DNA from: Beijerinckiaceae bacterium
GTDB lineage: Bacteria > Pseudomonadota > Alphaproteobacteria > Rhizobiales > Beijerinckiaceae
Assembly (NCBI GenBank): GCA_947454485.1
Contig: CANGJJ010000006.1
Coordinates: forward strand, 124,001 to 188,000
Reading direction: 5' to 3'
DNA length: 64,000 nt
The translations under genes and the position numbers were made by a program. Positions 31,760 through 50,667 of this stretch are shown here, piece by piece. The first letter of the stretch is position 1, and every line of letters begins with the position of its first letter. The notes under the pieces are model-generated. The model was not told the origin of the DNA, did not search any database, and was given only the letters and a program-made list of their open reading frames with translations.

Positions 31760-31781
31760 CACTATAGAAGGGGAGAAACCT

Positions 31782-32726: not shown

Positions 32727-32737
32727 CGGAGCGGATC

Positions 32738-34459
32738 ATGGCCTATCAGGAGCAGGCACGCAGCCCCGCACGCAGCGGCGGGCCACAGAAGCTGGGGGAG
32801 TTCGTCTATCCGACCTATCCCTATGTGGCCCCGCCTGAGATTGCTGCTGGCAAAGCAGGGCGCAGCCCTGTCGTTGTTGTGGGTGGTGGCATGGTGGGGC
32901 TCACCATCGCCATCGACATTGCGCGCAAGGGCGTCGCCTGCATCCTGATTGATGACAATGATACGGTGAGCGCGGGCTCGCGCTCTATCGCTCAGGCGCG
33001 CCGCACGATGGATATCTGGTCGCGGCTTGGTTGCGCTGAGCCCATGGTCGCCAAGGGCGTGTCGTGGAACAAGGGACACACCCATTATCGCGACAATTGC
33101 GTTCTGTCTTTTGAGGTCTTCCCCGAAGGTGGCGCGCGCTTTCCCTCTTTCACCAGTCTCGCGCAATATTATGTCGAGCACTATCTGGTCGAGCGTGCGG
33201 CCGCGCAGCCCAATCTGCAACTGCGCTGGCGCAACCGTTTGACGGGAGCCTCAGTCAAGACGGATGGCGTCTTGCTTGAGATCGACACACCCGATGGAGC
33301 CTATCAGATCCATGCTGATTGGGTCGTAGCCGCCGATGGTGCGCGCTCGGCCATGCGTCGACATCTCGGTCTCGATTTCAAAGGCAATCGCCTGAAAGAT
33401 AAATTTGTCATTGCCGATGTGCGCGTCCATGCGGATCTGCCCAATGAGCGCAACTATTGGTTCGAGCCACCCTTCTATGATGGCAATTCTGTTTTGCGCG
33501 TGCCGCAATCTGATTCCATCTGGCGGATCGACTGGCAGATCGATCCTGATGCGGATGTCACCCAAGAGCTTGCGCCCGACAATGTGCAAGCGCGCCTCAA
33601 ACGCATCTTTGGAGGGCAGACCCAATTCGAAGCTGAATGGGTCAGCACCTACACGTCCGAACATCGCTTGATGGACAATTTCCGCCATGGCCGCACACTC
33701 TTTGTCGGTGATGCCGCCCATCAGCTCTCGCCTTTTGGCGGCGGGCGTGGCGGCAATTCGGGCGTGCAAGATGCCGACAATCTCGCGTGGAAGCTCTGCG
33801 CTGTGATCAAAGGCCAAGCACAGGATGCCTTGCTCGATAGCTATGATCCTGAACGGCGCACCATCGCCATTCGCAATATCGCCGACTCCATGAAGTCGAC
33901 TGAATTCATCACCCCCAAAAGCACCCATTCGCTCGGCCTGCGCACTGCTGTCTTGCAGCTTGCCAATGCCGCCCCCTTCGCCAAGGCCTATGTGAATACG
34001 GGACGCTTCGCAGTCTGGCCGGTTCTGGAGAATTCACCGCTCTCCATTCCTGATACAGAGTCCTTCAGCGACAGCGCGAGACCCGGAACGCCCGCGCTTG
34101 ATTGCCTATTGAGCGCGCAGGATGGGAAAAGCCTCTGGCTGTCGGACCAGATTGGCGATGCCTTCACCCTGGTCATTTATGGCGATGAAGAGACGGTCAA
34201 AGTCGCTCGGCAAAAAGCTGAAGCTATTACGCAGAACATCTTCCCGCTACGCATCGTCGCCGTGACTGACAAGGCCTCTGCGCTCTCGCTCGGCGATCCG
34301 AAGGGTAGCTTTGCGGCGCAATATGATGCGCGGGCTGGAACAGCCTATCTCTTCCGTCCTGATCAACATGTGCTCGCCCGTTGGCGCGCCTGCGATCTCA
34401 GCAAAGTAGAAGCCGCCATGTTGAAAGCTTTGTGGCGCACAGCGGAGATACAGGCATGA
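32738..34459 (+). CDS. FAD-dependent aromatic hydroxylase (class A flavoprotein monooxygenase)
   Basis: This 573-residue flavoprotein resembles MhpA/PheA-type ring hydroxylases. It has the dinucleotide motif VVVGGGMVGLTIA near residue 46, the DGARS motif, and the FAD-contact block LFVGDAAHQLSPFGGGRGG. A thioredoxin-like C-terminal region ends in RPDQHVLARWR, a hallmark of the phenol/3-HPP hydroxylase group. ATG 32738 follows a GGAG element. It overlaps the DUF2783-like gene as ATGA. It should use NAD(P)H and oxygen to hydroxylate a phenolic acid; the precise substrate is unknown. Confidence 0.92.
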   Translation: MAYQEQARSPARSGGPQKLGEFVYPTYPYVAPPEIAAGKAGRSPVVVVGGGMVGLTIAIDIARKGVACILIDDNDTVSAGSRSIAQARRTMDIWSRLGCAEPMVAKGVSWNKGHTHYRDNCVLSFEVFPEGGARFPSFTSLAQYYVEHYLVERAAAQPNLQLRWRNRLTGASVKTDGVLLEIDTPDGAYQIHADWVVAADGARSAMRRHLGLDFKGNRLKDKFVIADVRVHADLPNERNYWFEPPFYDGNSVLRVPQSDSIWRIDWQIDPDADVTQELAPDNVQARLKRIFGGQTQFEAEWVSTYTSEHRLMDNFRHGRTLFVGDAAHQLSPFGGGRGGNSGVQDADNLAWKLCAVIKGQAQDALLDSYDPERRTIAIRNIADSMKSTEFITPKSTHSLGLRTAVLQLANAAPFAKAYVNTGRFAVWPVLENSPLSIPDTESFSDSARPGTPALDCLLSAQDGKSLWLSDQIGDAFTLVIYGDEETVKVARQKAEAITQNIFPLRIVAVTDKASALSLGDPKGSFAAQYDARAGTAYLFRPDQHVLARWRACDLSKVEAAMLKALWRTAEIQA

Positions 34460-34668
34460 CCCTCTCCATAGACAAAGTTCCACCGGGATTTCCCGTTGAT
34501 GATATCTATGCGCGTTTGGTCGCGATGGGCGCAGAGCGCTCGGATGACGACGCGCGCGCGATGCTCTCAGCCTTAGTGCTGGTTTTGATCAACCAGATCG
34601 CAGACCCGCAAAGGGTCTTTGCGGCCATCGATCTCGTCGAGACTGCGTTCAAAGATAAAAATCCATAA
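34456..34668 (+). CDS. Small DUF2783-like protein
   Basis: This 70-residue protein (MTLSIDKVPPGFPVDDIYAR at its N-terminus) is acidic and predicted helical with no cysteines or membrane segment. The helix LSALVLVLINQIADP is the most conserved-looking part. I recall DUF2783 proteins as about 70 residues and often beside flavoprotein hydroxylases, which this matches in size, style and position. Its ATG overlaps the hydroxylase stop (ATGA), implying coupled translation in fixed ratio. It may assist the hydroxylase, but no function is established from sequence. Confidence 0.65.
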   Translation: MTLSIDKVPPGFPVDDIYARLVAMGAERSDDDARAMLSALVLVLINQIADPQRVFAAIDLVETAFKDKNP

Positions 34669-34690
34669 GAACAAAGTGAGGGAGGACATT

Positions 34691-35653
34691 ATGAAAAACA
34701 TGTTCAAGGCATTCGCACTCACAACCATGCTTGGCCTGTCACTCGTGATGCAGGCGAGCGCACAGGCGGCCGAAACAGTCCGCGTCGCATCCTCGGCCGC
34801 CGTGTGCTTTTGCTTCCTGCCTGCCGCCTTTGGCACTGAACTTGGGATCTGGGAGAAATATGGCATCACGGTTGATCTGAAATCCATGGCGGGCGATGCG
34901 CGCGTGCAGCAGGCCATGGTCGCAGATGCAATCGACATCGGCCTTGGCAGCGGCCCCGGCATTGGAGCGCTGAGCAAAGGCGTGCCTGCCAAAGCAGTCG
35001 CGGCCATCATGTATCGCCCTGCTGGCATGGCGCTCATCACCAAGCCAGACTCTGCGATCAAGAGCGCTGCAGATCTCAAGGGCAAGAAAATTGGCGTGAC
35101 GACGGGTGGTTCACTCACTGAATGGCTGGCGCGCCGGGCGGGCACAGGTGCTGGTCTTGCGTTGAAGGATTTTCAGGTCGTGCCGCTGGGCGATTTGAGC
35201 AGCAACACCGCGGCCATGTTGTCAGGCTCCACCGATGCAATGGTCTATGGGTCTGAAGCTGGCTTTGCCATGCAGGTCAAAGGCACGGGCCGCGTTGTGG
35301 CAACCTTTGATTCCATCGTGCCGCATTTCGTCGCTCATACGATCTTCGTGACGGACAAATTCCGCTCACAAAAGCCCGAACTCACCAAAAACTTCCTGAA
35401 GGGCTGGCTCGAGATCATCACCTATATGCGCAACAATAAAGAAGCGACGGTGGACTTTGCCAGCAAGCAGCTCAACCTGCCCAAGGATGTGGCCTCCATG
35501 ATCTATGACGTCAATCTTCCCCAGTTCACGCGCGACGGACAGTTCCCCGACGCAGCTCTGGAGATCTTGAACGAGTCCTTCGTCGAGCTTGGCATCTTGC
35601 CCGCCAAGGTCGATGTGAAGGCCCTCATTGATACGCGCTTCCTTCCCAACTAA
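34691..35653 (+). CDS. NMT1/SsuA-type ABC substrate-binding protein
   Basis: This 320-residue exported receptor has leader MKNMFKAFALTTMLGLSLVM ending at AQAAE. The mature protein has FLPAAFGTELGIWEKYGITV and GDARVQQAMVADAIDIGLGSG. The last block nearly matches the receptors at 15906 and 16880. ATG 34691 has GGAGGAC upstream. It is encoded after the hydroxylase in the same operon as the 29428-31759 ABC proteins and is their natural partner. Confidence 0.92.
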   Translation: MKNMFKAFALTTMLGLSLVMQASAQAAETVRVASSAAVCFCFLPAAFGTELGIWEKYGITVDLKSMAGDARVQQAMVADAIDIGLGSGPGIGALSKGVPAKAVAAIMYRPAGMALITKPDSAIKSAADLKGKKIGVTTGGSLTEWLARRAGTGAGLALKDFQVVPLGDLSSNTAAMLSGSTDAMVYGSEAGFAMQVKGTGRVVATFDSIVPHFVAHTIFVTDKFRSQKPELTKNFLKGWLEIITYMRNNKEATVDFASKQLNLPKDVASMIYDVNLPQFTRDGQFPDAALEILNESFVELGILPAKVDVKALIDTRFLPN

Positions 35654-35673
35654 GGGGCCCAAGGACAGTACAG

Positions 35674-36390
35674 ATGGCAGATGCAGCCCGCCAAACCATG
35701 CAGAGCCTGACGGAGGGGGTCTATCTCTCCCTCCGCCGCGATCTGCTGTCCTGCAAGATCAAGCCTGGCGAGAAGTTGAAGATCAACGAGATCGCTTTGC
35801 GCCTTGGCGTCAATGCCAGTGGCATTCGCGAAGCGCTCTCGCGCCTGACCTCTGAGGGCCTGGTGGCAATGGAGGTACAGCGCGGCTTTCGCGCTGCGCC
35901 CGTCTCGATCACCGATCTGCGTGACCTGACCAAGACGCGCATACAAATCGAGACGCTCTGTTTTGAGACAGCACTTGCGCATGGTGATGTGGACTGGGAA
36001 GCGCACATCGTGTCAGCTTTCCACAAACTCAGCCATCTACCAGAGTTCGAGCGGATCAATGGCCAAGACTGCGTCAACGATGTGTGGATGAAGGCCCATG
36101 GCAATTTTCACCAAGCCCTCGTCTCGGCCTGCGACAGCGCTTGGCTGATGAAAATGCGAAGCTCCCTCTATGTGCAGTCAGAGCGCTATCGCCAACTCTC
36201 CGTCCCCTTCCGCCTCGAAGCGGAGCGCGCGCCCTATATCAAGGCACAAGAGGATGAGCACCGCATTTTGATGGAAGCCGCGCTGAAACGTGATCTTGCA
36301 ACCATCACTGATATTCTGGATGCGCATTTCGGTCGTACTGCGCAATTCGTCGAAGCCCTTGCCAGCGATATTGCCTTCTTAAGCGAGTAA
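35674..36390 (+). CDS. GntR family transcriptional regulator, FadR/FCD subfamily
   Basis: This 238-residue regulator has an N-terminal winged helix (VYLSLRRDLLSCKIKPGEKL and LGVNASGIREALSRLTSEGL, residues about 15-70). The C-terminal all-helical FCD domain has histidines for a metal site (HGNFHQAL, EDEHR). ATG 35674 lies 20 bases after the receptor stop, so it is the last gene of the operon and probably represses it until a carboxylate ligand binds. The inverted repeat at 29337-29373 is a candidate target. Confidence 0.92.
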   Translation: MADAARQTMQSLTEGVYLSLRRDLLSCKIKPGEKLKINEIALRLGVNASGIREALSRLTSEGLVAMEVQRGFRAAPVSITDLRDLTKTRIQIETLCFETALAHGDVDWEAHIVSAFHKLSHLPEFERINGQDCVNDVWMKAHGNFHQALVSACDSAWLMKMRSSLYVQSERYRQLSVPFRLEAERAPYIKAQEDEHRILMEAALKRDLATITDILDAHFGRTAQFVEALASDIAFLSE

Positions 36391-36397: not shown

Positions 36398-37201
36398 CTA
36401 AAGCTCGACATCAACTGCCTCTTGCGAACGCCGCTCGGCCAACTTTTGGGCAACCATATCGCGTATCTCGACCAAGGGCGGCAGTAAGCTCTTCACTGCC
36501 TCGCTTTCGCTCACTGCTGAAGCTGCAAAAGTCACACCCAGCGCGCCAAGTGAACCAAGCGGCCCGCGTAGGGCGACCGCGATCGTATTGGTATGGCCAA
36601 AGAAGCCGGGCGGGCGCAGTGCGTAACCGGTCTTGCGCACAGCCGCCACGCGCGCGGCGACATTCTTTGGCTCCAGCACAAGGGCATCCATCGGATCGCC
36701 CGAATTGCGCAGCGTCGTCAGAACGCCTTGCACGCCCGCATCATCAAGCGAGGCGAGATAGGCCAGCCCCAAAGACGTATGCAGCACGGGGAGACGAAGC
36801 CCAACTTTCGCTCCATCAAAATCCCATGGGCTTGCACGACGCGTTGTGTCACGCAGCAACATGCGGCCAAATTCATAAGTGGCAAAATCCGTCGGCCAGA
36901 CGAGTTGCTTTTGCAACCGATCCAGAAAAGGCTCAACAAGTTCGGTCAGCCAATCCTGATCGCGATAGCCCACACTCAAATGAAGCACCTGACTGGTGAG
37001 CCTGTATGAGGCACCGCGCGCCTCGCGCTTCACATAACCATCCTGTTCTAACGTATCGAGAATACGATAGAGCGCGGGCCGCGAGATGCGGCTCATACGG
37101 CTGATCTCCAAGACCGAGGCGTGGCCTTTGCGGTTCAACGCGCGCAAAACTTCCATGGCACGAGAAACCGTCCGCAGCGTGCCTTTCAGCTTTTGCTCCA
37201 C
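36398..37201 (-). CDS. IclR family transcriptional regulator
   Basis: This 267-residue protein has an N-terminal HTH (TVSRAMEVLRALNRKGHASV, ISRPALYRILDTLEQDGYV) and a C-terminal effector domain (RLPVLHTSLGLAYLA, GFFGHTNTIAVALRGP). The GTG at 37201 is chosen because AGGAGGG lies six bases upstream and HTH similarity starts right after it. A longer start at 37237 would cross the operator. It is divergent from the eight-gene operon starting at 37473. A perfect 17-base palindrome lies just upstream of its own ribosome site, suggesting autoregulation and control of the divergent operon. Confidence 0.93.
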   Translation of the reverse strand: MEQKLKGTLRTVSRAMEVLRALNRKGHASVLEISRMSRISRPALYRILDTLEQDGYVKREARGASYRLTSQVLHLSVGYRDQDWLTELVEPFLDRLQKQLVWPTDFATYEFGRMLLRDTTRRASPWDFDGAKVGLRLPVLHTSLGLAYLASLDDAGVQGVLTTLRNSGDPMDALVLEPKNVAARVAAVRKTGYALRPPGFFGHTNTIAVALRGPLGSLGALGVTFAASAVSESEAVKSLLPPLVEIRDMVAQKLAERRSQEAVDVEL

Positions 37202-37211: not shown

Positions 37212-37228
37212 TGTCCGCAGAGCGGACA
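37212..37228. promoter_or_regulatory. Perfect 17-base palindrome, candidate IclR operator
   Basis: TGTCCGC (37212-37218) and GCGGACA (37222-37228) flank AGA as perfect 7-base arms. The length and short spacer fit IclR-family operators. It abuts the ribosome site of the IclR gene and lies 245 bases before the first gene of the divergent operon. It therefore most directly explains autoregulation. Confidence 0.65.
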
Positions 37229-37472
37229 ACAGCTCAACGCTCACTCGCCAGTTCCGGCAATTCATTCATAGTAGACGACAGCTGCGCACCAAAGCGCAAC
37301 ATAGAAAACAGGGAGGAGATCTTGGGCGCGCCACAGTCGCGATTCCCAAAAAGCGAGATTGTGCCCGCAAGCGACGCAATCGGATACGCACACTGCCTTG
37401 CCTGCAAACTTCAATCATTTTCGACCCTTCGATGAGCCGTGCCGTGGACTGACCTTCCAACCGGAGTGCGCG

Positions 37473-38504
37473 ATGAGACGGAACACCATTTCTCGACAAT
37501 GCATCAGGTTGCTGGCCCTCGCCTGCCTGATCGCGCTCGCCCCCTCCTCTCATGCTCAAGCCCCCAGCAGTTACACTGGCAAGCAGCTGACCATTGCGCT
37601 CGGATATGGCACCGGCGGCACCTATTACACTTATGCAAAATTAATGGCGGACCATCTTGGACAATTCGTTGATGGCAAGCCCAATGTGCTGGTGCAATCC
37701 ATGCCCGGCGCTGGCGGAGTGCGCATGCTCAATGCCGCCGCAAAATTGATGAGCGGCGATGGCACACAGCTCTTTGTCCCGCCCGACACAATGGTGATCA
37801 GCCAGACGATTTCCAAAGAAGGTGGTCAATTCGACGCGCGCAAGTTTCACTATCTGGCAACGATCAACCAGCAGAACAATGTATTCGTCGCGCGGCGCGA
37901 TTCTGCCACAACGATGGACGATCTGAAGACGCGCGAGATCATTGTCGGCCATTCAGGCATCGGATCAGCGGGCCATATCGTTCCATCGATTGCCAAAGAC
38001 ATTCTGGGTCTCAAGCTGAAACTCATCGCGGGATATGAAGGATCGCGCGATGCCATTCTTGCTATGGAGCGCGGTGAAATAGATGCCGCCATCTTTGGTT
38101 GGGAAACCTGGGAACAGGCAGTGCCTCATTGGTTCAAGGGCGAGAATTCTTTCGCTGTTGCCTTGTTCCAGACAGGCTATCGTCGCGAGACCGCCCTTCC
38201 CGATGTGCCGCTGTTGCGCGACATGGCCAAAGGCGATGACCGCGCCCTAGTTGAACTCTCCGATACACAAGTGATTTTGGGGCGCAGCATCGCCCTGCCG
38301 CCGAGCGCGTCCAAATCGCTCGTTGAACAGTTCCGCAAAAGAGTCGCCAAAATGGTCGCTGACCCAGAGTTTCAGCATGACGCAGAGCGCAGACGCCTCA
38401 TTCTCAATCCACTGTCAGGCCCTGAACTGCAATCGGCCATCGACAAAGCCATCAGCGCCCCTTCACCCGCCCTCATCGCACGGGCGAAAAGCCTGCTTCA
38501 GTAA
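37473..38504 (+). CDS. TctC-like binding protein, divergent subclass
   Basis: This 343-residue exported protein has leader MRRNTISRQCIRLLALACLI to SHAQA. The mature part begins YTGKQLTIALGYGTGGTYYT, then QSMPGAGGVRMLNAAA. It matches the divergent TctC-like group seen also at 39380, 45723 and 51742, which share a Y-GK-I opening and an AMERGE-[VI][DE] motif. ATG 37473 follows a GGAG element. It is first in the operon 37473-45717. The 271-base spacer to the IclR gene should hold the promoter. Confidence 0.88.
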   Translation: MRRNTISRQCIRLLALACLIALAPSSHAQAPSSYTGKQLTIALGYGTGGTYYTYAKLMADHLGQFVDGKPNVLVQSMPGAGGVRMLNAAAKLMSGDGTQLFVPPDTMVISQTISKEGGQFDARKFHYLATINQQNNVFVARRDSATTMDDLKTREIIVGHSGIGSAGHIVPSIAKDILGLKLKLIAGYEGSRDAILAMERGEIDAAIFGWETWEQAVPHWFKGENSFAVALFQTGYRRETALPDVPLLRDMAKGDDRALVELSDTQVILGRSIALPPSASKSLVEQFRKRVAKMVADPEFQHDAERRRLILNPLSGPELQSAIDKAISAPSPALIARAKSLLQ

Positions 38505-38524
38505 CAAAGACACGGGAGACCGCC

Positions 38525-39358
38525 ATGGATGACCAGAGCACCAAAACCCCATATCGCTCCTTGAGCGTCAAAAAATGCAGCCCTCATGTGGGCGCGGAGA
38601 TCGGCAATATTGATCTCACCCGACCCTTAAATGATCTGGAATTGTCAGAACTGAAGCGCGCCTTCACGGAACATGGTGTGCTCTTCTTCCGCAATCAGAA
38701 GATCAGCTTTGATGACCATGCGCGGCTCGGTGAATATTTTGGCCCGCTTGGCTCTCATGTCGGCAAAAAGACAAATAGCAAGCCAAGCGATGATCCGCGC
38801 ATTCGTCTCTTCCATTTTGATGAGAAGAGCGAGCGCATCTCAGGCAATGTCTGGCACACGGATCAGTCCTGCGCACCTCACCCCCCGCTCGGCAGCATTC
38901 TCTACATGCATACAATCCCGCCCGATGGCGGTGGCGACACGATGTTTTCGAGCATGTATGCCGCCTATGATGCCTTGTCGGATCGGATGAAAGACTATCT
39001 TGAGGGCCTGACCGCCATGCATGATGGCGTGCCGACCTTTGGCGACGGCACACCACGCGCCATTCATCCCGTCATCGTTCGCCATCCCGAAAGCGGTCGC
39101 AAACTTCTCTACGTCAATGAGAGTTTCACCACCTATATGCTGGGTGTACCGCATCACGAAGGGCTCGGAGTCCTGCGCATGCTCTATGCACATGTGCAAA
39201 AGCCTGAGTTTTGCTTCCGCTTCCGCTGGGAACCTCATTCGATTGCCTTCTGGGACAATCGTTGCATGCAGCACTATGCCACCGACGACTACTGGCCGAA
39301 TGTTCGTTCTGGATATCGCGTCCAGATCGAAGGCGTCGTGCCACCCAAAGCACCATAA
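38525..39358 (+). CDS. TauD/TfdA family iron(II)/2-oxoglutarate-dependent dioxygenase
   Basis: This 277-residue cytoplasmic oxygenase has the metal pair His111-x-Asp113 in WHTDQS and the distal His250 in MQHYA. A 2-oxoglutarate-binding arginine lies in RSGYRVQ near 265. The family includes taurine and 2,4-D dioxygenases, which hydroxylate next to a heteroatom and release sulfite or a phenol. ATG 38525 follows GGGAG. Gaps of about 20 bases place it between two TctC-like receptors. A side-chain or ether cleavage yielding a hydroxylated aromatic acid is a plausible role. Confidence 0.92.
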   Translation: MDDQSTKTPYRSLSVKKCSPHVGAEIGNIDLTRPLNDLELSELKRAFTEHGVLFFRNQKISFDDHARLGEYFGPLGSHVGKKTNSKPSDDPRIRLFHFDEKSERISGNVWHTDQSCAPHPPLGSILYMHTIPPDGGGDTMFSSMYAAYDALSDRMKDYLEGLTAMHDGVPTFGDGTPRAIHPVIVRHPESGRKLLYVNESFTTYMLGVPHHEGLGVLRMLYAHVQKPEFCFRFRWEPHSIAFWDNRCMQHYATDDYWPNVRSGYRVQIEGVVPPKAP

Positions 39359-39379
39359 CGAGAAAGCAACGGGCAGATC

Positions 39380-40402
39380 ATGATCGCACGCCATCCCCTC
39401 AGCGCGCTTCATGCAGGACTGATCTGCCTGTTGCTCCTCGTCAGCGCGAGCACTGGTCGCGCCAATGACTTTTATGCAGGCAAAACGATCAATCTTTATG
39501 TCGGCTTTGATGCTGGCGGCGGCTATGATCTTTACGCGCGCCTCATCAGCCGCCACCTCGCGCGCTTTCTTCCCGGCGATCCAAAGATTGTTGTGCAAAA
39601 TATGCCGGGTGCTGCTGGCCTGCGCGTTGCCAATTATCTCTATCGTGTTGCCCCTCAAGACGGCACAGCATTGGGCCTTGCTGCTGAATCCATTGCGTTG
39701 GAACAAGCACTGCAGGGTGCTGGCACAGAATATGACGCGAGCAAGCTCAATTGGGTTGGCCGTGTCGCACCCAGCGCCTCCATCACTTTTACTTGGCACA
39801 CATCAAAAACCAAGACTTTCGAGGATGCTCGCCGCAATGAGACCGTGATCGGCGCAACAGGGGTCACAGGCATTACGAGTTATACGCCACGCGCGCTCAA
39901 CCGCCTTGCCAAATCGCAGTTCAAGCTCATCACCGGCTATAGCGGCTCTTCCAGTGTCTTGCTGGCGATGGAGCGCGGCGAAGTCGAAGGGGGATTTGCG
40001 ATCTGGCCCGAATTTGCCAAGCAAAAGCCAGACTGGATCTCGGGCAAAAAGATCAACGTGCTCTACATCGTCGCAGGCAAACGCGCGCCAGAACTACCAG
40101 ATGTCCCAACCACGGATGAGCTTGGCACCAACGAGACAGCCAACAAAGTTCTGCGCTTTCTCGCCAGCACGACTGAAATTGGTCGCGCCATCTTTACCAC
40201 ACCCAATATACCAGCCGATCGGCTAGACCTCTTGCGCAAAGCTTTCATGGAAATGACGCGCGACCAAGAGTTTCGCCGCGATGCAGAACAAGCCGGCCTG
40301 CAGATCGATGCTTTGCCAGGCGATATTCTGCAGGCGCAGGTCACCAGTATCATCACCTCTCCAAAGAGCATTATCGACGAAGCGAAAGCTGCGCGCGACT
40401 AG
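39380..40402 (+). CDS. TctC-like binding protein, divergent subclass
   Basis: This 340-residue receptor has a leader (LHAGLICLLLLVSASTGRA). The mature start is NDFYAGKTINLYVGFDAGGG, followed by QNMPGAAGLRVANYLYRVAP. The closest local relatives are 45723-46748 and 51742-52752, which share FYxGKTI and AP-DGT. It is the second receptor of the IclR-linked operon, so two receptors of one class are expressed with the same enzymes. No membrane partner is encoded here. Confidence 0.9.
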   Translation: MIARHPLSALHAGLICLLLLVSASTGRANDFYAGKTINLYVGFDAGGGYDLYARLISRHLARFLPGDPKIVVQNMPGAAGLRVANYLYRVAPQDGTALGLAAESIALEQALQGAGTEYDASKLNWVGRVAPSASITFTWHTSKTKTFEDARRNETVIGATGVTGITSYTPRALNRLAKSQFKLITGYSGSSSVLLAMERGEVEGGFAIWPEFAKQKPDWISGKKINVLYIVAGKRAPELPDVPTTDELGTNETANKVLRFLASTTEIGRAIFTTPNIPADRLDLLRKAFMEMTRDQEFRRDAEQAGLQIDALPGDILQAQVTSIITSPKSIIDEAKAARD

Positions 40403-40440
40403 TCGAGCAAAAGCGCAAGCCAGAAGACAGGACGGTTCCT

Positions 40441-41490
40441 ATGAAATTCGGCATTCAATACTTCCCCGTTCGCGGTGCCAAAGATGATGCTGTCGCTTAT
40501 TTTCGCGAGTCGCTTGAGCTCGCCGTCGAGGCCGAGCGACTGGGATTTAACCATGCCCGCATCGTTGAACATTATTTCCACCGCTATGGTGGCTACACGC
40601 CCAATCCCCTCCTTTTTCTTTCCGCCCTCTCCCAACGCACCACGCATCTTCGTCTGGTCACAGGCGCTGTTCTGCCGGTCTTCAACAATCCACTAAAACT
40701 GGCAGGCGAGATCGCGATGGTCGATGCACTGTCAGAAGGTCGGCTTGAGGTTGGCATTGCGCGCGCGTTTTTGCCCCATGAATTTCGCCGCTTCGGCATT
40801 TCGACAGATGAATCACAAGCGCGGTTTCGTGAGGGAATCGAGCAACTGCATCTCCTTTTGACGCAAGAGCGCGCAACCCATAAAGGGCAATTCCACTCAT
40901 TCGAGAATGTGCAGTCCCTTCCCCGCCCGACACAAAAACCGCGTCCAAAATTCTATGTCGCTGCGACTCAGAGCCCGGAGACATTTGAATTTGCGGGACG
41001 TGAAGGCCATGCGCTGATGGCTATTCCACTGGGAAGCATCAAGCCATTGCTGGAAATCTATCGTAAAGCATGGCGCGATGCAGGCCATCCCGGCAATGGG
41101 GATGTCATGGTCGCTTTCCATATGCTCTGCCACGAAGACGAGCAGCGTGCCCGGGACATCGCCCGCGATCCCTTTAATGATTATTTCGATGCGCTCAATG
41201 AATGCGCCAGCGAATGGGTCGATGGCGCTGAGTCGAAAGACTATGTCGGCTACAAACAATCGATGCAGAAAATCAAAAGCGTGAGCATGGAATCACAGAT
41301 CGAAACAGGCGGGGCCTGGATTGGAACCCCCGATACGATCAAAGCCACGATCCGCAAATGTATCGACATGATTGGCCCATTCGAACAGGCCTCCGTTCAG
41401 GTCAATTTTGGTCATGTGCCCTTCACAGATGCCATGGCCTCGTTGCGCCTGTTCTGCAAAGAGGTCCTGCCCTCATTCCGCGACGCCTGA
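40441..41490 (+). CDS. Luciferase-like (LLM) flavin-dependent monooxygenase
   Basis: This 349-residue single-domain protein starts MKFGIQYFPVRG and has the LLM blocks AERLGFNHARIVEHYF, RLVTGAVLPVFNNPLKLAGE and SEGRLEVGIARAFLP. It would use reduced FMN to oxidise a small molecule. It is not of the NtaA type at 1818; it resembles the alkanal/alkanesulfonate monooxygenase branch. ATG 40441 follows AGGAC. It is fourth in the IclR-linked operon. A flavin reductase must come from elsewhere, for example 56968. Confidence 0.9.
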   Translation: MKFGIQYFPVRGAKDDAVAYFRESLELAVEAERLGFNHARIVEHYFHRYGGYTPNPLLFLSALSQRTTHLRLVTGAVLPVFNNPLKLAGEIAMVDALSEGRLEVGIARAFLPHEFRRFGISTDESQARFREGIEQLHLLLTQERATHKGQFHSFENVQSLPRPTQKPRPKFYVAATQSPETFEFAGREGHALMAIPLGSIKPLLEIYRKAWRDAGHPGNGDVMVAFHMLCHEDEQRARDIARDPFNDYFDALNECASEWVDGAESKDYVGYKQSMQKIKSVSMESQIETGGAWIGTPDTIKATIRKCIDMIGPFEQASVQVNFGHVPFTDAMASLRLFCKEVLPSFRDA

Positions 41491-41513
41491 TCCAATATTT
41501 TCGGGAGGATTGA

Positions 41514-42488
41514 ATGAAACAGAAGAACCTGGTTCGCTGTGCCGGCATCGCCCTTTCACTCATCATCAGCTCATCATCCTTTGCGCAAGAGACTTTGCGC
41601 ATGGCCGTTGGCCAAGGCATTCCCTTTGATACGGCCATTCCCATCGCTGCTGTCAAAGCTGGCATATTCAAAAAGCACGGACTCGATATTGAGCTGATCA
41701 TCACCAGCGGCGGCGGTGAGACTTTGCAGGCCGTCATCTCAGGCAGCGTCGATATTGGTATTGCTGCGGGTACAACCGGTGTTCTGGGCGCATTCTCGAA
41801 AGGCGCTCCGATCCGCATCATTTCATCCACAGCAACCGGCGTGGACGACACATTCATTTATGTGCCGACCAATTCGCCCATCAAAACCGCGAAAGATATT
41901 GACGGCAAGACTGTCGCCTTCTCCACCGTAGGGGCCTCGACTTACACAACAGTGACCGGCATTTCGGACCATTACAAAGTGAAGCCAAAATATGTCGCCA
42001 CTGGCAGCATACCGGCTACTTATTCGACAACCATGTCGGGACAAGTGGATGTAGGCTGGGGCGCGGTCCCCTTTGGCATCCAAGAACAGCGCGACGGAAA
42101 AATTCGCGTCCTTGCTTGGGGCTCTGATGCCGAGCGCACACGCGACCAGACATTGCGCGTCAATATCACCAATGCTGCCGTTCTCGACAAACGCAAAGAG
42201 GCTCTGAAGAAGTTCATGAGCGCCTATTATGAAGCGCTCGATTGGGCCTATAGTTCGCCGGACGTTTTGAAGATCGTCTCCGAGACTTTCTCCATCCCCG
42301 CTGACATTATCGACGAGACGCGCACGAACCACACGACGCGCCGCATGACGCAACTTGGCGAGGTCAAAGGCATCGAGCAGTCCATGCAAGATGCGATCGA
42401 GTTCAAATATATGAGCGCACCGCTCACCAAAGAACAGCGTGCCGAGCTCGTCCAGATCGACGCTCTGCGTCCGCCAGCCAAACCTTGA
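41514..42488 (+). CDS. NMT1/SsuA-type ABC substrate-binding protein
   Basis: This 324-residue exported receptor has leader MKQKNLVRCAGIALSLIISS ending at SFAQE. The PBP fold shows AAVKAGIFKKHGLDIELI and SGSVDIGIAAGTTG. ATG 41514 has GGGAGG ahead. It is more distant from the 15906/16880/34691 group than they are from each other. Its operon contains no ABC ATPase or permease, so it must dock to a channel encoded elsewhere, possibly the NitT-type systems at 13.5-16 or 29.4-31.8 kb. Confidence 0.9.
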   Translation: MKQKNLVRCAGIALSLIISSSSFAQETLRMAVGQGIPFDTAIPIAAVKAGIFKKHGLDIELIITSGGGETLQAVISGSVDIGIAAGTTGVLGAFSKGAPIRIISSTATGVDDTFIYVPTNSPIKTAKDIDGKTVAFSTVGASTYTTVTGISDHYKVKPKYVATGSIPATYSTTMSGQVDVGWGAVPFGIQEQRDGKIRVLAWGSDAERTRDQTLRVNITNAAVLDKRKEALKKFMSAYYEALDWAYSSPDVLKIVSETFSIPADIIDETRTNHTTRRMTQLGEVKGIEQSMQDAIEFKYMSAPLTKEQRAELVQIDALRPPAKP

Positions 42489-42498
42489 GGAACAGGCC

Positions 42499-43503
42499 AT
42501 GACGCAAGATTACGCTGAGCTGCGGCAGGCATGGAAGGCAGCCAATCTGTCGCCCCTCTGGGAGAGTACGACAGCGCATAAGCCGCCACCACGCCCCGAT
42601 CCCGCCCTGCATTGGGGATGGGACCATCTGCGCCCGCTGCTCGAGAGCGCGATGAAGGTCACATCACCCGAGGCTGTAGAGCGGCGCGTACTCTTGCTCG
42701 TCACACCCCATCCACGCGATGCAGATGATGAGGCAACCGCGCGCACTTTGGCAGCAGGCATTCAAATGCTGCTACCGGGTGAGCGCGCGCGCCCGCATCG
42801 CCACACGATGAATGCCTTGCGCTTCGTATTGGAGGGATCGGGCGCCACGACGCTGGTCGATGGAAAAGCCTGCCCAATGGACGTGGGCGATCTGATCCTC
42901 ACGCCTGCATGGACCTGGCATGAACATCAGCACACAGGAACAGAGCCAACTATGTGGCTCGACGTGCTTGATGTGCCCTTGCATCTCTGGCTCGGCAATG
43001 TCGCCTTCCAACCCGGCCCCATCAATGATGCGCCTGTTACGACGCCCGACGCCGCCTTTAGTGCCGCCAATGTCGTCCCCGTGATGCAGGCTGTTGGGGC
43101 ACCCCATTCACCGGTCTTTCGCTACCCTTATGCAGATGCAGTGCGCGCACTTCGACATGCGCCCGTCTTGGACGATGGCACCCGGCAGGTGCGCTATGCC
43201 AATCCGCTCACAGGCGGCAGCGCGATGTGCCTGATGGATGCACTGTTGATGCAGATCGAGAAAGGGCGCCCCAGCCGCCCGGTCCTCACCAACAGCAATT
43301 CGGTTTTCTGCGTCACTGAAGGCGAAGGCGAAAGCCAGATTGGCGGCAAAACCATTCGTTGGCGGCCGAAAGATATTTTCAGCGTCCCGCAGCATAATCC
43401 TTGCCGTCACACAGCCTTCTCGGAAACCGCGCGCCTTTTGCGCGTCAGCGACCGCGATGCCTTGAACCGCCTCGGCATCCTCAAAGAAAAAATCAGCGAG
43501 TGA
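42499..43503 (+). CDS. Gentisate 1,2-dioxygenase-like bicupin ring-cleavage enzyme
   Basis: This 334-residue two-cupin protein matches gentisate/1-hydroxy-2-naphthoate dioxygenases in length and layout. The N-terminal cupin carries the iron ligands His100 and His102 (RPHRHTM) and His141 or His143 (WTWHEHQH). The second cupin (VTEGEGES to VPQHNPCRH) is also well kept. Such enzymes cleave gentisate with oxygen to maleylpyruvate. ATG 42499 follows GAGGAAC. It is the best evidence that the IclR-linked operon degrades an aromatic acid; salicylate-type substrates are possible alternatives. Confidence 0.88.
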   Translation: MTQDYAELRQAWKAANLSPLWESTTAHKPPPRPDPALHWGWDHLRPLLESAMKVTSPEAVERRVLLLVTPHPRDADDEATARTLAAGIQMLLPGERARPHRHTMNALRFVLEGSGATTLVDGKACPMDVGDLILTPAWTWHEHQHTGTEPTMWLDVLDVPLHLWLGNVAFQPGPINDAPVTTPDAAFSAANVVPVMQAVGAPHSPVFRYPYADAVRALRHAPVLDDGTRQVRYANPLTGGSAMCLMDALLMQIEKGRPSRPVLTNSNSVFCVTEGEGESQIGGKTIRWRPKDIFSVPQHNPCRHTAFSETARLLRVSDRDALNRLGILKEKISE

Positions 43504-43507
43504 GACA

Positions 43508-44482
43508 ATGGCTGACGTGAAACTTTCCTTCGGGTGTGGCTGGTATGATCGTATTGAGCCACTGCGCAACAAGACAGTGGTGCCGGAAGGTATCGATCTT
43601 GAGATTGAAACGATCGAGGACCCCCGCCTTCTGTTTGATCGACTCTCCGGCAAGGGAGATTTTGATCTCGCCGAATTATCTATGTCCGAATATGTCGCCA
43701 TGACCGCGGCAGGCACTTCTCCTTATATGGCCCTGCCCGTTTGGACTTCACGCGCCTTTCGTCACAGCTTCATCTGCATCAACACCAACGCCGGGATTAC
43801 AAGCCCCAAAGATCTGGAAGGTCGCCGCATTGGTGTGCCTCTCCACACAATGAGTGCTGCCATCTGGTGTCGCGGCGCATTGCGTGATGACTATGGCGTC
43901 GATCTATCAAAGGTCACATGGGTAGAGGGCGCAATGGAACATGCAGGCCTTCACGGTACCGCACGTGATCATCACCTCGCGGTACCCACTACAATCACGC
44001 ACAATCTTAGCCAATATTCCCTGAGCGAACTTCTGGATCGAGGCGAGATTGACGCTACTCTTGGCGCGCTGATGCCCACCAATTTTGGCACATCCCAAAA
44101 TATCAAACGCCTCTTTCCCAATTACCGTGCGGTTGAGATCGCCTCTTATCAAAAGACCGGCGTCCATCCGATCATGCACCTGGTCGTGATCCGCAAATCA
44201 GCCCTTGAGAAGCATCGCTGGATCATTGACCCGCTGATGGAGGCCTTCACCAAGGCCAAGGATCTTGCGATGGCACGCTTGTTCTATACAGGCGCACTTC
44301 GCTCCATGCTGCCAATGCTTCATGCCGAAGTTGACGAGACACGTCGCATTTTCGGCGACGACCCCTGGCCGGATGGTGTTGAGAAAAATTTGCGCACGCT
44401 CGACCGTCTCATCACTTATATGATGGATGATGGCATCATCACGCGGCGCCCCTCCTATGATGAATTGTTCCTGATGACATGA
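43508..44482 (+). CDS. 4,5-dihydroxyphthalate decarboxylase-like (PBP-fold) protein
   Basis: This 324-residue protein begins MADVKLSFGCGWYDRIEPL and has no signal peptide. The family blocks are FDLAELSMSEYVAM, RAFRHSFICINT and LEGRRIGVPLH. It follows the gentisate-dioxygenase-like gene by 4 bases and overlaps the P450 gene as ATGA. Placement between a ring dioxygenase and a P450, plus lack of export, supports a cytoplasmic decarboxylase-type role. A binding-protein function cannot be excluded from sequence. Confidence 0.83.
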   Translation: MADVKLSFGCGWYDRIEPLRNKTVVPEGIDLEIETIEDPRLLFDRLSGKGDFDLAELSMSEYVAMTAAGTSPYMALPVWTSRAFRHSFICINTNAGITSPKDLEGRRIGVPLHTMSAAIWCRGALRDDYGVDLSKVTWVEGAMEHAGLHGTARDHHLAVPTTITHNLSQYSLSELLDRGEIDATLGALMPTNFGTSQNIKRLFPNYRAVEIASYQKTGVHPIMHLVVIRKSALEKHRWIIDPLMEAFTKAKDLAMARLFYTGALRSMLPMLHAEVDETRRIFGDDPWPDGVEKNLRTLDRLITYMMDDGIITRRPSYDELFLMT

Positions 44483-45717
44483 GGGCTGCGATGATTTCGA
44501 CCGACGGGCTCGATCCTGCCAAGATTAGCCAGATCAACTTGGGAGGAGCCGAGCTGAAAGCCAATGCGCGTCAGGTTCTGCTCGGCTGGGCCTCGAACCC
44601 GCCCTTCTACATTCTCAACAATGGACCGCCGCAAGTCATCGTAGGCCGCTATGGGGATGTGCAGGAAGTCTTCACAGACCCAGTGCGATTCTCCTCTGTC
44701 GTGCCGCGCGGTAAGGGCTATGAGCAATTTGACCGCTTCCTTGGCAGTCAATTCATCACGCAGATGGATGGTGAACAACATGCGCGGTTGCGTCGCTTGT
44801 TGATGTCCGCTTTCACACCCAAACGCCTTGCTCAACTTGAAACGCGCGCCGTCGAACTCATATCGGCTCTGCTCGACCGTATAGAGGCCAATGGGCCAGA
44901 GTTTGACGCCATGAACCACTATGGCGCACAGCTCGTCGTGGCCGTGTTGCTGACAGCCATGATGAATCTCGACGAAGACCAGCGCGCCGCTGTGCTGGGC
45001 TTTCAAGAGGTACAATCCCTCATGACCGCGATGCGACCGGGAGATGCTTTCCCTCAAGAAGTCCTGGACGCTCATCAGCGTATGGCTGATGTCATTCAGC
45101 ATCTGATTGATGAACGGCGTGCCAAACCCCATTCGGATTTTCTGGCCGACCTTGTCGCAGCACGCGACGAGGGCGACCGTCTCAGCGACCGCGAATTGTT
45201 TGACACTATCTTTGGTACTGCAGGCGCGCTTGCCACTTTGCCCCGTTCCAGTTCGGGTAGCATTCACATGCTCTACACCCATCGGGATCAATTGCAGCAG
45301 GTGATGGATAACCCTTCGCTCGTGCCGCAAACGGTGGAGGAGTGCCTGCGCATCGCCAGCAATGGCTATTTCACATTCCCACGCGTGGCCACCTGCGACA
45401 CACAGGTGGGTGGCACCGAAATTCGCAAGGGCATGATCGTGCGACCCTCACCTCAGGCAGCCAATTACGATCCAACCGTCTTTACTGATCCCCTCAAATT
45501 CGACATTCACCGCAACCCCAAACGCATCATGTCCTTTGGGGCAGGCCCGCATCATTGCATCGGCCACGCTCTTGGTCGCATGACATTGCAGATCGCTCTG
45601 CGCTCGCTCATCACACGCTTCCCAAAAGCCCATCTTGTAGATCCCCATTTCGTACCGGAATATGGGGGCGCAACTGGTGAGCTGAGAATGAAGGCGCTAC
45701 CCATGCGTATCGCCTGA
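44479..45717 (+). CDS. Cytochrome P450 with altered I-helix
   Basis: This 412-residue P450 has the heme loop FGAGPHHCIG with thiolate Cys360 and the K-helix EECLRI. The I-helix that usually reads AG-x-(D/E)-T appears as GALAT (249-253), so the acidic residue of the proton-relay pair looks replaced by Ala252 while Thr253 stays. That could mean peroxide-driven or non-standard chemistry. The ATG overlaps the previous stop (ATGA). It ends the IclR-linked operon and converges on the TctC-like gene at 45723 with five bases between stops. Confidence 0.9.
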   Translation: MRAAMISTDGLDPAKISQINLGGAELKANARQVLLGWASNPPFYILNNGPPQVIVGRYGDVQEVFTDPVRFSSVVPRGKGYEQFDRFLGSQFITQMDGEQHARLRRLLMSAFTPKRLAQLETRAVELISALLDRIEANGPEFDAMNHYGAQLVVAVLLTAMMNLDEDQRAAVLGFQEVQSLMTAMRPGDAFPQEVLDAHQRMADVIQHLIDERRAKPHSDFLADLVAARDEGDRLSDRELFDTIFGTAGALATLPRSSSGSIHMLYTHRDQLQQVMDNPSLVPQTVEECLRIASNGYFTFPRVATCDTQVGGTEIRKGMIVRPSPQAANYDPTVFTDPLKFDIHRNPKRIMSFGAGPHHCIGHALGRMTLQIALRSLITRFPKAHLVDPHFVPEYGGATGELRMKALPMRIA

Positions 45718-45722: not shown

Positions 45723-46748
45723 TTATCGCGCGGAGACCTCCATCGCAGCCTGCGTCCGACGGATCACATCTTGCGGCGTAGCAAGAACTTCTCGAACAGC
45801 CGTCTGCATCTGCGCGCCCGACATAGGGTCTATATCAATCGCCATGCGCTGCGCCTCGGCGAGAAAGTCTGCATCAAGCATCGTTGCATCAAAGGCGCTG
45901 CGTAAAATAGAGAGCCTCTCCTGCGGAACGCCAGGCGGTGCAGCCAGCGGCCTGCTCAAGGCTGTGGTGAGTGACAAAAACCTCGCGACAGCGGCTTTGT
46001 CGGGCTCTTGCGCGACCAAGTCCTGGAACAGAGGCACTTGAGGCAAATCGCGATCTTTCTTGATGCCAATTTGGATGAGCGGCACCAAGCGACCATCCGC
46101 CACGGCTTGCGGAAGCGTCGATTTATAGCTGCCCCAAGTATTGGTGCCGCGTCCATCAATCTCTTGCCGCTCCATCGCCAGATTGAGCGCACCACCGCCA
46201 TCATAGCCATAGACGACCTTGAACTTCGTTCCCAGCAACGCATTATAGACGGTCGGAATCTGCGCATCAGGCGCACCCACGCCTGTGGAGCCGAGCACGA
46301 TTTGAATGCGCTTGGCCTCCTCCAGCGTTTTGGCTTTTGCCATATGCCAGACGGCCGTCACATTGGGCGCTTGTGAAAAATTACCCAGCCAACTGAGATC
46401 GGCCAAGGAGGCTTGCATACCCGATTGGCCCGTAGGCTCATGCACCATCAAACCCTGTCCGATGAGCGTCAAAAACGTACCATCACGCGGCGCGATACGC
46501 GCTGCATGATTGAACGCCGTCAGCCCACCAGCGCCCGGTTGATTCATAATGACGATGGCGGGATTGCCCGGCACATGCCGACCAAAATGACGTGCGAAGA
46601 GACGGATCAAAGTGTCATAGCCACCGCCCACACCTGCATGAGTGGAGATGGTGATCGTCTTGCCTGCATAAAAATCTGCCGCATTCGCAGTGGGGGCGCT
46701 CCAACTCAATCCGAGCGCCGCCACAAGAACACCGAACAACCCGCGCAT
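45723..46748 (-). CDS. TctC-like binding protein, divergent subclass
   Basis: This 341-residue receptor has leader MRGLFGVLVAALGLSWSAP to ANAAD. The mature opening is FYAGKTITISTHAGVGGGYD, followed by NQPGAGGLTAFNHAARIAP. ATG 46748 shares one base with the stop of the upstream isomerase-like gene (TGATG), so the two are translationally coupled. That pairing suggests the ligand is related to maleate-like or arylmalonate-like acids. Confidence 0.9.
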   Translation of the reverse strand: MRGLFGVLVAALGLSWSAPTANAADFYAGKTITISTHAGVGGGYDTLIRLFARHFGRHVPGNPAIVIMNQPGAGGLTAFNHAARIAPRDGTFLTLIGQGLMVHEPTGQSGMQASLADLSWLGNFSQAPNVTAVWHMAKAKTLEEAKRIQIVLGSTGVGAPDAQIPTVYNALLGTKFKVVYGYDGGGALNLAMERQEIDGRGTNTWGSYKSTLPQAVADGRLVPLIQIGIKKDRDLPQVPLFQDLVAQEPDKAAVARFLSLTTALSRPLAAPPGVPQERLSILRSAFDATMLDADFLAEAQRMAIDIDPMSGAQMQTAVREVLATPQDVIRRTQAAMEVSAR

Positions 46749-47488
46749 CAGTCTTCGGCCACCAAACGACCCAGTGATGAGGCCAAATGATAGGGGCCGA
46801 GCTTTGCTTTTAGATGTTTGGCCGCGCCCCAAATCACAGCTTGATTGGAATTCACCACCGGCTTGCCGATGGCCTCTTCCAATGCAGCGATGGCCTCAAT
46901 CTGCGTCGTATTTGTGCAGGACAAGAAGAAACCATCAGCTTCGGGCACATCATGTTTGCGCGCCAGTTCCACCCATTCTTGCGGTGTGATCTTGGCATAG
47001 TCCGCACCAGAGCCGCCATAGCCAAGGGCCACATCCCCGACCGTCTCGATGCCGACTTCGCCAAGATAGCGCACCGCATCTTTATTGGAACGATAGGGGC
47101 TGATGACCACGACCTTTTTCATATTGAGGGCGCGCATGGCCTCAACCACAAGACCAATGGTCGAGAAAGTGGGGCGCGATGTCGCCTGCGCAATCTTGGA
47201 CAAGACGCGCTGATCTCCCTCAACGCCTTCCTTCATGGATGTACCGGTACAATGAAAGACGATGGCGTCAGGATCCGCATCCATCAACAAATCCGTCGCC
47301 TGTTCGATACGAGGCTCCAGATCGCTCAATGTTAGTTGAGGATTTCCAGCAATGCGTGCACGCATCACATGGATCGCCATTCCATCGGGCGCATATTTGT
47401 TGAACTGCGGCTCACTCATCGTATTCACTGCAGGGATGATGAGCCCGAGCCTCAGGCTGAGGGGTTGGTAGTCAGCAATTGCGCTCAT
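46748..47488 (-). CDS. Maleate cis-trans isomerase / Asp-Glu racemase superfamily protein
   Basis: This 246-residue protein has two catalytic-type cysteines, Cys80 in FHCTGTSM and Cys191 in LSCTNT. Maleate isomerases and related racemases use such a pair; arylmalonate decarboxylase has one. The N-terminal RLGLIIPAVNTMSEP is typical of the maleate isomerase branch. ATG 47488 has GGGAGGA upstream. It heads a two-gene minus operon with a TctC-like receptor. Maleate arises in some gentisate and nicotinate routes, which would link it to the ring-cleavage gene at 42499. Confidence 0.87.
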   Translation of the reverse strand: MSAIADYQPLSLRLGLIIPAVNTMSEPQFNKYAPDGMAIHVMRARIAGNPQLTLSDLEPRIEQATDLLMDADPDAIVFHCTGTSMKEGVEGDQRVLSKIAQATSRPTFSTIGLVVEAMRALNMKKVVVISPYRSNKDAVRYLGEVGIETVGDVALGYGGSGADYAKITPQEWVELARKHDVPEADGFFLSCTNTTQIEAIAALEEAIGKPVVNSNQAVIWGAAKHLKAKLGPYHLASSLGRLVAED

Positions 47489-47627
47489 GGCGTCCTCCCG
47501 AAGGTATTGAACCCAGTCTAGCCCATCACTCCTGGCAATCAAGGCTCGCCTTGTGCTTGCCTTTTGCGGTGATCTGGATTGAACTAACGAAAAGCTGCCA
47601 AAGAGCAGCCTTGTTTGGGAGGACATC

Positions 47628-48590
47628 ATGCGTCGCAGTTTCTTGCGCTTTGTAGCTTGCGCTCTGGCAACAGCATCTCTCAGCGCACCGCTTCACGCTG
47701 CAGACTGGCCGCAAGATCGGGCCATTCGCATCATCGTCCCCTTTGAACCTGCTGGCTTGGTCGATATCATTGGGCGCATTCTTGCCGATCAATTGTCACG
47801 CGAACTCGGCCAATCAGTCGTGGTGGAGAATCGTGGCGGCGCTGGAGGCAAGAATGGGTCGTTGCAGGCCATGCGCGCGCCAGCTGACGGATATACGCTA
47901 CTCTTGTCGGGCCTTGCCTCGCATGTCATCGCGCCTCTGACCTCTGATCCCAAGCCCTATGATGGCGTCAAAGACTTCACGCATATCGCCTATCTCAGTG
48001 GCCCACCCATGGTAGTTGCTGTCTCAGGTAAGAGCGACATCACTTCATTCGCCGATATAATCGCCAAAGCCAAAGAGTCGAAGGTTGATGGCTATGCATC
48101 AGCCGGCGTCGGTACTTTGAGCTATATCATCATGGAGTCGGTTCTGAAGGCGAACAAAGCCTCGATCCCACATGTGCCTTACAACACAGCTGCACTGAAC
48201 GACATTATCGCAGGCCGGGTGCCAGTTGGCGTTTTCAGTTACGGCCCTGTTGCAGCGCAAGCAGCCTCTGGCACGATGCGCATGGTTGCTCTTTCGACAG
48301 CACAGCGTCATCCGGGGGCCGCCTCCGTGCCCACGCTCAAAGAGCTTGGCTATGACGTGGTCGCGCCCAGCTGGGTCGCATTGTCTGCGCCCGCCGGCCT
48401 TGATCCTGCAATTGTGCAAAAGCTCAATGCGGCGACCAATCGCATTTTGGGTCATGAAGAGGTCAAGAAGCGTCTGTTCGAAGACGCCATTGCCATTGAA
48501 CTCATGTCACCGGCGCAGACAGCGGCGTTCGTTGCAAGCGAAACCACGGCTTGGACAGGCCGCATGAAATCCATGGGCATGATCAAATAG
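47628..48590 (+). CDS. TctC/Bug family binding protein
   Basis: This 320-residue exported receptor has leader MRRSFLRFVACALATASLSA to LHAAD. The mature part has WPQDRAIRIIVPFEPAG, VENRGGAGG and APADGYTLL. ATG 47628 has GGGAGGAC ahead. It is divergent from the isomerase-like gene over 139 bases and followed on the same strand by another TctC gene after 85 bases. Ligand and membrane partners are unknown. Confidence 0.92.
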   Translation: MRRSFLRFVACALATASLSAPLHAADWPQDRAIRIIVPFEPAGLVDIIGRILADQLSRELGQSVVVENRGGAGGKNGSLQAMRAPADGYTLLLSGLASHVIAPLTSDPKPYDGVKDFTHIAYLSGPPMVVAVSGKSDITSFADIIAKAKESKVDGYASAGVGTLSYIIMESVLKANKASIPHVPYNTAALNDIIAGRVPVGVFSYGPVAAQAASGTMRMVALSTAQRHPGAASVPTLKELGYDVVAPSWVALSAPAGLDPAIVQKLNAATNRILGHEEVKKRLFEDAIAIELMSPAQTAAFVASETTAWTGRMKSMGMIK

Positions 48591-48675
48591 GACCGACCCT
48601 GGACGGCCTCTGGCCCTTATCTTGTCATGATCAGATCAGCATGGCATGAAAGTCCCATGGAAGTGGGAGATACTC

Positions 48676-49662: not shown

Positions 49663-49677
49663 GGCCCGACCATCGCG

Positions 49678-50559: not shown

Positions 50560-50591
50560 GCAGTCCCCCTGCTAGTCTCGACATATTGCTA

Positions 50592-50613: not shown

Positions 50614-50667
50614 GCGACCTCCCATGCAATTTGAACCAGAGATTTCAAACCTCCAAGCATCAGGCGT

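Follow-up and report, generated by a model that had tools for sequence, protein, structure and literature searches.

We analyzed a 64,000-nucleotide stretch (the window) of contig CANGJJ010000006.1 from a Beijerinckiaceae bacterium, whose assembly totals 3.29 Mb in 20 contigs. Eight co-directional genes span positions 37473 to 45717, and an IclR-family regulator gene adjoins them in the divergent orientation. The gaps along the eight genes are 20, 21, 38, 23, 10, 4, and -4 nucleotides, the last being a 4-nucleotide ATGA overlap between the Pht5-like and P450 genes. The original prediction of a tight run divergent from IclR, with gaps of 4 to 38 nucleotides and a final ATGA overlap, was thus accurate. 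A scan found 1 promoter-like site versus 5.2 in shuffled sequences, and 11 terminator-like sites versus 10.0, and was not informative. The features are as follows, with the three genes that we refer to as the core marked.

36398-37201, reverse strand: IclR-family regulator; GTG start with GGAGG upstream; PF09339 (41.3 bits) and PF01614 (27.8 bits), both above the cut-off
37212-37228, no strand: probable IclR operator, TGTCCGC-AGA-GCGGACA, 10 nucleotides before the IclR start
37473-38504, forward strand: TctC-like periplasmic receptor 1, a divergent member; signal peptide by eye; weak TIGR02122 match (35.2 of 84.35 bits)
38525-39358, forward strand: TauD/TfdA-type iron/2-oxoglutarate oxygenase; PF02668 (215 bits, above the cut-off); PDB 3pvj at 1.3e-52
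39380-40402, forward strand: TctC-like periplasmic receptor 2, a divergent member; PF03401 (26.2 bits against a cut-off of 27)
40441-41490, forward strand, core: luciferase-like FMN monooxygenase (LLM); PF00296 (200.2 bits against 27.9); PDB 7bip at 1.3e-80
41514-42488, forward strand: NMT1/SsuA-type periplasmic receptor; PF09084 (84.9 bits against 20.5)
42499-43503, forward strand, core: gentisate/salicylate-dioxygenase-like bicupin (GDO); TIGR02272 (238.7 of 442.1 bits); PDB alignments
43508-44482, forward strand: Pht5-like (4,5-dihydroxyphthalate-decarboxylase-like) protein; PDB 9jp7 at 6e-54 over residues 3-321
44479-45717, forward strand, core: cytochrome P450; PF00067 (116.7 bits against 22.8); orthologues; alignment to three solved P450s

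Comparison with Pfam, NCBIfam, and PDB sequences backed the family assignments made earlier, with two qualifications. TctC-like 1 had no Pfam match at E<=0.001, and TctC-like 2 fell just below its cut-off.

We then compared gene order across 120 loci (20, plus 80 named LLM loci, plus 20 further regions, partly the same places), of which 96 were at least 9.3 kb and long enough to show eight genes. The eight-gene order was found in none of these 120 partly redundant homologous loci. A neighborhood search had been proposed with the original prediction; it placed the full order in the bacterium's own genome only, while an LLM-GDO core, in some cases with P450, recurs elsewhere. The earlier eight-step logic is not supported as such: the full order appeared nowhere else searched, and the core recurs without TauD, the receptors, or the Pht5-like gene. 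The fullest other loci were L111 (IclR, LLM, GDO, and P450) and L088, a locus that coincides with L047 (LLM, P450, NMT1, and a Pht5-like protein at 36% identity).

The LLM profile came from an alignment of six orthologues, and the named loci hold the best 80 of 184 relatives, with 1.08 Mb of DNA beside LLM in total. A GDO homologue lies in the LLM flank at 16 of these 80 loci, and an orthologous P450 (57 to 64% identity) lies near LLM at 5; a sixth P450, at 27%, was set aside. As an order-of-magnitude check, with densities taken at other thresholds from relatives having GDO matches rather than from the genomes that supplied the 80 loci, the expected numbers were 0.8 to 1.0 for GDO (Poisson P <1e-13) and 0.3 for P450 (P ~2e-5). 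The other operon genes were scarce near LLM in the same 80 loci: IclR at 1, NMT1 at 1, TauD at 1 (33%), and Pht5-like at 6 (29 to 39%). A contig scan with the single GDO protein as the query confirmed no relative. Counting the bacterium's own genome, GDO matches (E<=1e-30) occurred in 63 of 101 genomes, LLM (E<=1e-100) in 15, P450 (E<=1e-50) in 10, NMT1 (E<=1e-60) in 45, and TauD (E<=1e-60) in 19, and Pht5-like matches (E<=1e-90) occurred in 23 of 61.

The 16 GDO-linked loci are not independent, L110 being a near copy of L109. The distance test took 15 of them, leaving out L110, and 12 remained after LLMs more than 80% identical were collapsed. With the window and L046 included, LLM and GDO distances were correlated (Mantel r=0.57, p=0.0006, n=14 collapsed), in a test that ignores species kinship; before collapsing, r was 0.78 (n=20). 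In the GDO tree, the LLM-linked members do not form one clade, and linkage requires 10 changes against a shuffle mean of 15.0. L010 was labelled "none" in that tree since its locus is short, and the same gene lies about 4.2 kb from LLM in L033 and L085. LLM-linked GDOs fall on both sides of the deepest split.

The order LLM, GDO, P450 is common to the window and L111, where a divergent IclR gene precedes LLM-GDO-P450-TctC. In L070 (Terripilifer ovatus H3SJ34-1), LLM and GDO overlap by 4 nucleotides, and a P450 gene lies divergent with a TctC gene. L046 (genome G032, 5734-15306) carries GDO, FAH-like, LLM, receptor, and aldolase-like genes with a divergent P450 gene (FAH, receptor, and aldolase by eye). 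An SDR-like gene, also divergent, and a FAD-hydroxylase-like gene were noted there by eye as well. This set may represent the pathway in its most complete form. An FAH-family gene accompanies LLM and GDO in L081 and L092 (by Pfam), in L129 (by clustering), and in L046 and L160 (by eye), and Rieske and amidohydrolase genes also lie near LLM in relatives. In the window operon, TctC-like 1, TauD, and TctC-like 2 precede the core, and the NMT1 and Pht5-like genes stand between core genes. TauD, the receptors, and the Pht5-like gene look like local additions, and the operon is a local mosaic around a recurring core.

GDO keeps the iron ligands H100, H102, and H141 of the first cupin (HxH...H), aligned to PDB 2d40 and 2phd. 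The Arg, His, and Asp positions of the gentisate/salicylate dioxygenase superfamily are also kept. We infer that GDO is a putative ring-cleaving enzyme for a hydroxy-aromatic acid. Its scores are below the equivalog cut-offs, both for TIGR02272 and for MabB (NF049978; 158.3 of 650 bits). Ala85 occupies the position of Trp104 in salicylate dioxygenase (SDO) and of a Tyr in the Escherichia coli GDO, residues to which we presume active-site roles. On the window side of the deepest split (26 of 47 GDO rows), this position holds Ala, Ser, Cys, Thr, or Asn; on the other side (21 rows), it holds Val in 7, Phe in 6, Tyr in 4, His in 3, and Ala in 1. The bacterium's own genome has 12 FAH-family matches, one of them clustered with another GDO. 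A second gentisate-like cluster on contig 12 (L150, 5199-15720) comprises FAH-family, aldolase-like, NMT1, GDO, receptor, and GST-like genes, assigned partly by eye; the coordinate of its GDO is 37001 plus the locus position.

The best PDB match of LLM is RslO1 (7bip), over residues 1-346. Passages of the RslO1 report propose that it forms an epoxide and works with a flavin reductase in rishirilide biosynthesis (PMC8093152). All NCBIfam subfamily scores of the window LLM were below the cut-off among the 25 of 29 matches listed. LLM homologues of about 55% identity were also seen in Moorena, Okeania, and Symplocastrum (L139, L144, L146, and L119), and the available DNA of these four loci contained no GDO at E<=1e-20.

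The P450 has an ExxR motif (EECLR) and the heme-Cys motif FGAGPHHCIG. In profile alignments to three solved P450s, Ala252 falls where all three have the I-helix acid, a Glu, and Thr253 takes the place of the alcohol residue. The window P450 thus lacks the acid of the acid-alcohol pair that marks a typical monooxygenase, and neither it nor the 12 other orthologue rows have an Asp or Glu in this motif stretch. Depending on how the sequences are aligned, L111 and the L046/L052/L163/L164 group may have lost the I-helix Thr as well.

The element between IclR and the operon adjoins the IclR GGAGG. It had been described as a perfect 17-base palindrome; the 7-bp arms are indeed a perfect inverted repeat, but the AGA center is asymmetric, so that the whole is not strictly a palindrome. 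The exact 14-base arm pattern occurs once in the bacterium's own genome. We found a similar element in L111 (a Xanthobacteraceae metagenome-assembled genome, JAIESI010000099.1), where TGTCCGC-CAG-GCGGACA lies 4 nucleotides before the likely IclR ATG. The L111 IclR is 53% identical to that of the window. The motif had been derived from the window, so the L111 comparison was a test fixed in advance. The pattern is rare, at 24 sites in 397 genomes; by our own estimate from that frequency, assuming about 4.3 Mb per genome, the chance of such an element in the L111 intergenic stretch (about 110 bases) is on the order of 1e-6. Among aromatic-pathway regulator families, the window IclR scored 89.3 of 284.75 bits with PcaR/PcaU/PobR and 170.1 of 251 bits with PRK09834, which we take to be MhpR. 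These are its nearest-scoring families, although both scores are below the cut-offs.

The operator pattern alone was rejected as a definition of a regulon. With up to 2 mismatches, it had 27 sites in the bacterium's own genome versus 37 for the control. Among 397 genomes of the order, 23 carry the pattern (24 sites), and 11 carry the reversed control. Of 23 loci with the pattern that were examined, the one in the window was alone in lying next to an IclR match (E<=1e-4).

TauD has H111-x-D113, H250, and R265 by eye. A phmmer comparison shows the two TctC-like proteins to be homologues (about 4e-52). Of 50 window proteins scanned, at least 6 score above the TctC cut-off, not counting the divergent TctC-like proteins within or next to the operon. 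For NMT1, a loose first look gave up to 130 candidates in one genome of the genus, of which 22 were scored. NMT1-type matches with one in-frame stop were seen in several genus genomes (for example, G008, G039, and G045), hinting at birth and death in an expanded family. As predicted earlier, the operon encodes receptors without a transporter; genes for an ABC ATPase and two permeases (29428-31759) lie 6 to 8 kb upstream, outside the operon, and could serve the NMT1 receptor.

The Pht5-like protein also has weak receptor-type Pfam matches (NMT1) and, by eye, no signal peptide. Its full-length match to 9jp7 gives fold and kinship only, and a decarboxylase activity is putative. The bacterium's own genome holds 12 Pht5-like matches, counting this one. 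On contig 6 (L167, 7932-10752), a Pht5-like gene directly follows a Rieske oxygenase alpha/beta pair, as seen by eye; this placement would suit a decarboxylase role of Pht5-like proteins without proving it.

We somewhat favor the view that a single IclR-controlled operon, comprising all eight genes, serves to break down an aromatic acid by oxidation; the acid would most likely be an ortho-hydroxy-carboxylate of the salicylate/gentisate type. This reading draws on what the DNA itself displays: the operon layout, the 7-3-7 element with its L111 counterpart, the core of LLM and GDO with or without P450, and the kept GDO residues. A regulated aromatic-oxidation operon fits because IclR is nearest to aromatic-pathway regulators, because the GDO catalytic residues are kept, and because GDO and LLM are linked elsewhere. 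We infer every reaction and the reaction order as follows. The IclR protein would sense the acid, and the receptors would bind it and pass it to shared membrane parts encoded elsewhere. P450, TauD, or both would trim a substituent; the side-chain or ether cleavage proposed earlier for TauD is likewise hypothetical. LLM would hydroxylate or epoxidize the ring, aided by a flavin reductase encoded outside the operon. The Pht5-like protein may then remove a carboxylate, GDO would open the ring, and an FAH-family hydrolase from elsewhere would split the product.

Several observations weigh against this reading. No operon protein reached an NCBIfam cut-off among the matches listed, and therefore homology alone names no substrate. 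The operon genes include no flavin reductase, P450 redox partner, maleylpyruvate isomerase, or FAH. At 64 of the 80 LLM loci, GDO was not found in the available flanking DNA, and the LLM-GDO linkage could partly follow shared descent. Searches for IclR gave no match in the 50 remaining genomes of the genus (E<=1e-55) or in 396 further genomes of the order (E<=1e-65). Outside the bacterium's own genome, the regulator is linked to the core in L111 only, and the L111 GDO is 33 to 35% identical and belongs to the other deep branch of the GDO tree. Finally, passages of the paper on T. ovatus H3SJ34-1, a relative in the same GTDB genus published from coking-plant soil, state that the strain showed no growth in an aromatic-degradation test, with data not shown and the compounds for the strain unlisted (PMC11936349). 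This non-growth speaks either against the simplest substrates or for conditions that were not met.

The eight genes might instead be two units that are adjacent by chance, TctC-TauD-TctC for one substrate and LLM to P450 for another, each with its own control. The longest gap, 38 nucleotides, lies directly before LLM, and the set of TctC-like 1, TauD, and TctC-like 2 was not found with the core in the loci compared. TauD also has differing neighbors in L154-L157 (59 to 61% identity), which represent 4 of the 19 genomes where TauD matched. However, 38 nucleotides is still operon-like, and the promoter scan placed no site in that gap, a weak point given how few sites it found. In addition, L111 has the same kind of IclR gene and element directly before LLM-GDO-P450, an arrangement that links the divergent IclR with the distal genes. 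We consider two separate units unlikely.

A scheme in which sulfur is scavenged from an aromatic sulfonate seems to us less probable again. Here an SsuA-like receptor would deliver the compound, TauD and LLM would desulfonate it, and P450 and GDO would then degrade the ring. NMT1 does match SsuA_fam best (74.8 bits), and TauD matches taurine dioxygenase best (NF007104, 225 bits), but these scores are below the cut-offs of 163.5 and 313. With alkanesulfonate monooxygenase, LLM scores no more than 34.8 of 518.2 bits, and its closest relative among solved chains is RslO1; SsuB, SsuC, and SsuE are absent from the operon; and the recurring partner of LLM is GDO, with TauD near LLM at 1 of 80 loci. 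We give the least weight to a tailoring set for a secondary metabolite, which we regard as very improbable. RslO1 is a polyketide-tailoring enzyme, the best NCBIfam matches of P450 include natural-product P450s (all below the cut-off), and some LLM homologues occur in Moorena and Okeania. However, the 50 window proteins scanned include no assembly-line gene. The receptors and the ring-opening dioxygenase point to uptake and breakdown, and relatives have FAH-family, Rieske, and amidohydrolase genes close to LLM.

The preferred reading, an aromatic-acid catabolic operon, can be set beside known systems. The classical gentisate operon consists of dioxygenase, isomerase, and FAH hydrolase genes. 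The window operon shares a GDO-like gene with it, and FAH-family or GST genes stand beside LLM-GDO in some relatives, but the operon itself has LLM and P450 in place of the isomerase and FAH. GDO shares the fold of gentisate, salicylate, and 5-aminosalicylate 1,2-dioxygenases, with full-length matches to PDB 2d40, 3bu7, and 2phd; it differs in falling far below the equivalog cut-offs and in having Ala85 for an aromatic residue. RslO1 acts in a biosynthetic context in Streptomyces, whereas the window LLM is paired with a ring-cleaving dioxygenase and has no reductase in its operon. The Pht5-like protein resembles Pht5-type 4,5-dihydroxyphthalate decarboxylase over its full length, but the operon has no phthalate dioxygenase. 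Passages of a report on Rhodoplanes and Bordetella describe expansions of orphan TTT/Bug receptors with few membrane partners (PMC5994714). The window is alike in its many receptors, but it has three in one catabolic operon, and TctC-like 1 and 2 are divergent.

Other clusters in the window were noted on both sides of the operon. Upstream, a cluster of like style (28000-36390) holds MmgE/PrpD, the ABC genes mentioned above, a second Pht5-like gene (31728-32726), a FAD_binding_3 hydroxylase, an NMT1-type receptor, and a GntR regulator. Positions 5665-13491 hold a second P450 (9023-10345, reverse strand), a GMC oxidoreductase, and a gamma-glutamyltranspeptidase, with TRAP DctP and DctM genes adjoining. 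After the operon (45723-56258) come a divergent TctC-like gene, an arylmalonate-decarboxylase/Asp-Glu-racemase-like gene, five TctC genes above the cut-off, and an FMN-dependent dehydrogenase. At 57507-58991 and 1737-3173 lie an HpaB-type 4-hydroxyphenylacetate 3-hydroxylase homologue and a second luciferase-like monooxygenase.

An aromatic-catabolic operon is a known kind, but we did not find the recurring core described, and none of the open-access papers searched places an LLM and a gentisate-type dioxygenase together in a cluster; in one paper retrieved for both, the LLM genes are unconnected with gentisate. We tentatively suggest, as a possibility short of an expectation, that the core is an undescribed ring-opening module that recurs in Alphaproteobacteria. 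In it, an RslO1-like FMN monooxygenase would be the standing partner of a bicupin dioxygenase, with a widened pocket in the window branch. A P450 clade without the I-helix acid would often join them and might use substrate-assisted or peroxide-like activation. The pair would have co-diversified over several GDO branches, under different regulators (IclR and MarR) and with varied receptors and trimming enzymes. If the core is a real pathway, a pair that recurs at 16 of 80 LLM loci has no substrate described in the searched literature. The element at the IclR start would offer a direct handle on the inducer, and the P450 clade without the I-helix acid would be a testable mechanistic oddity. If true, the module would account for what some of the many LLMs and GDO-like cupins in soil Alphaproteobacteria do.

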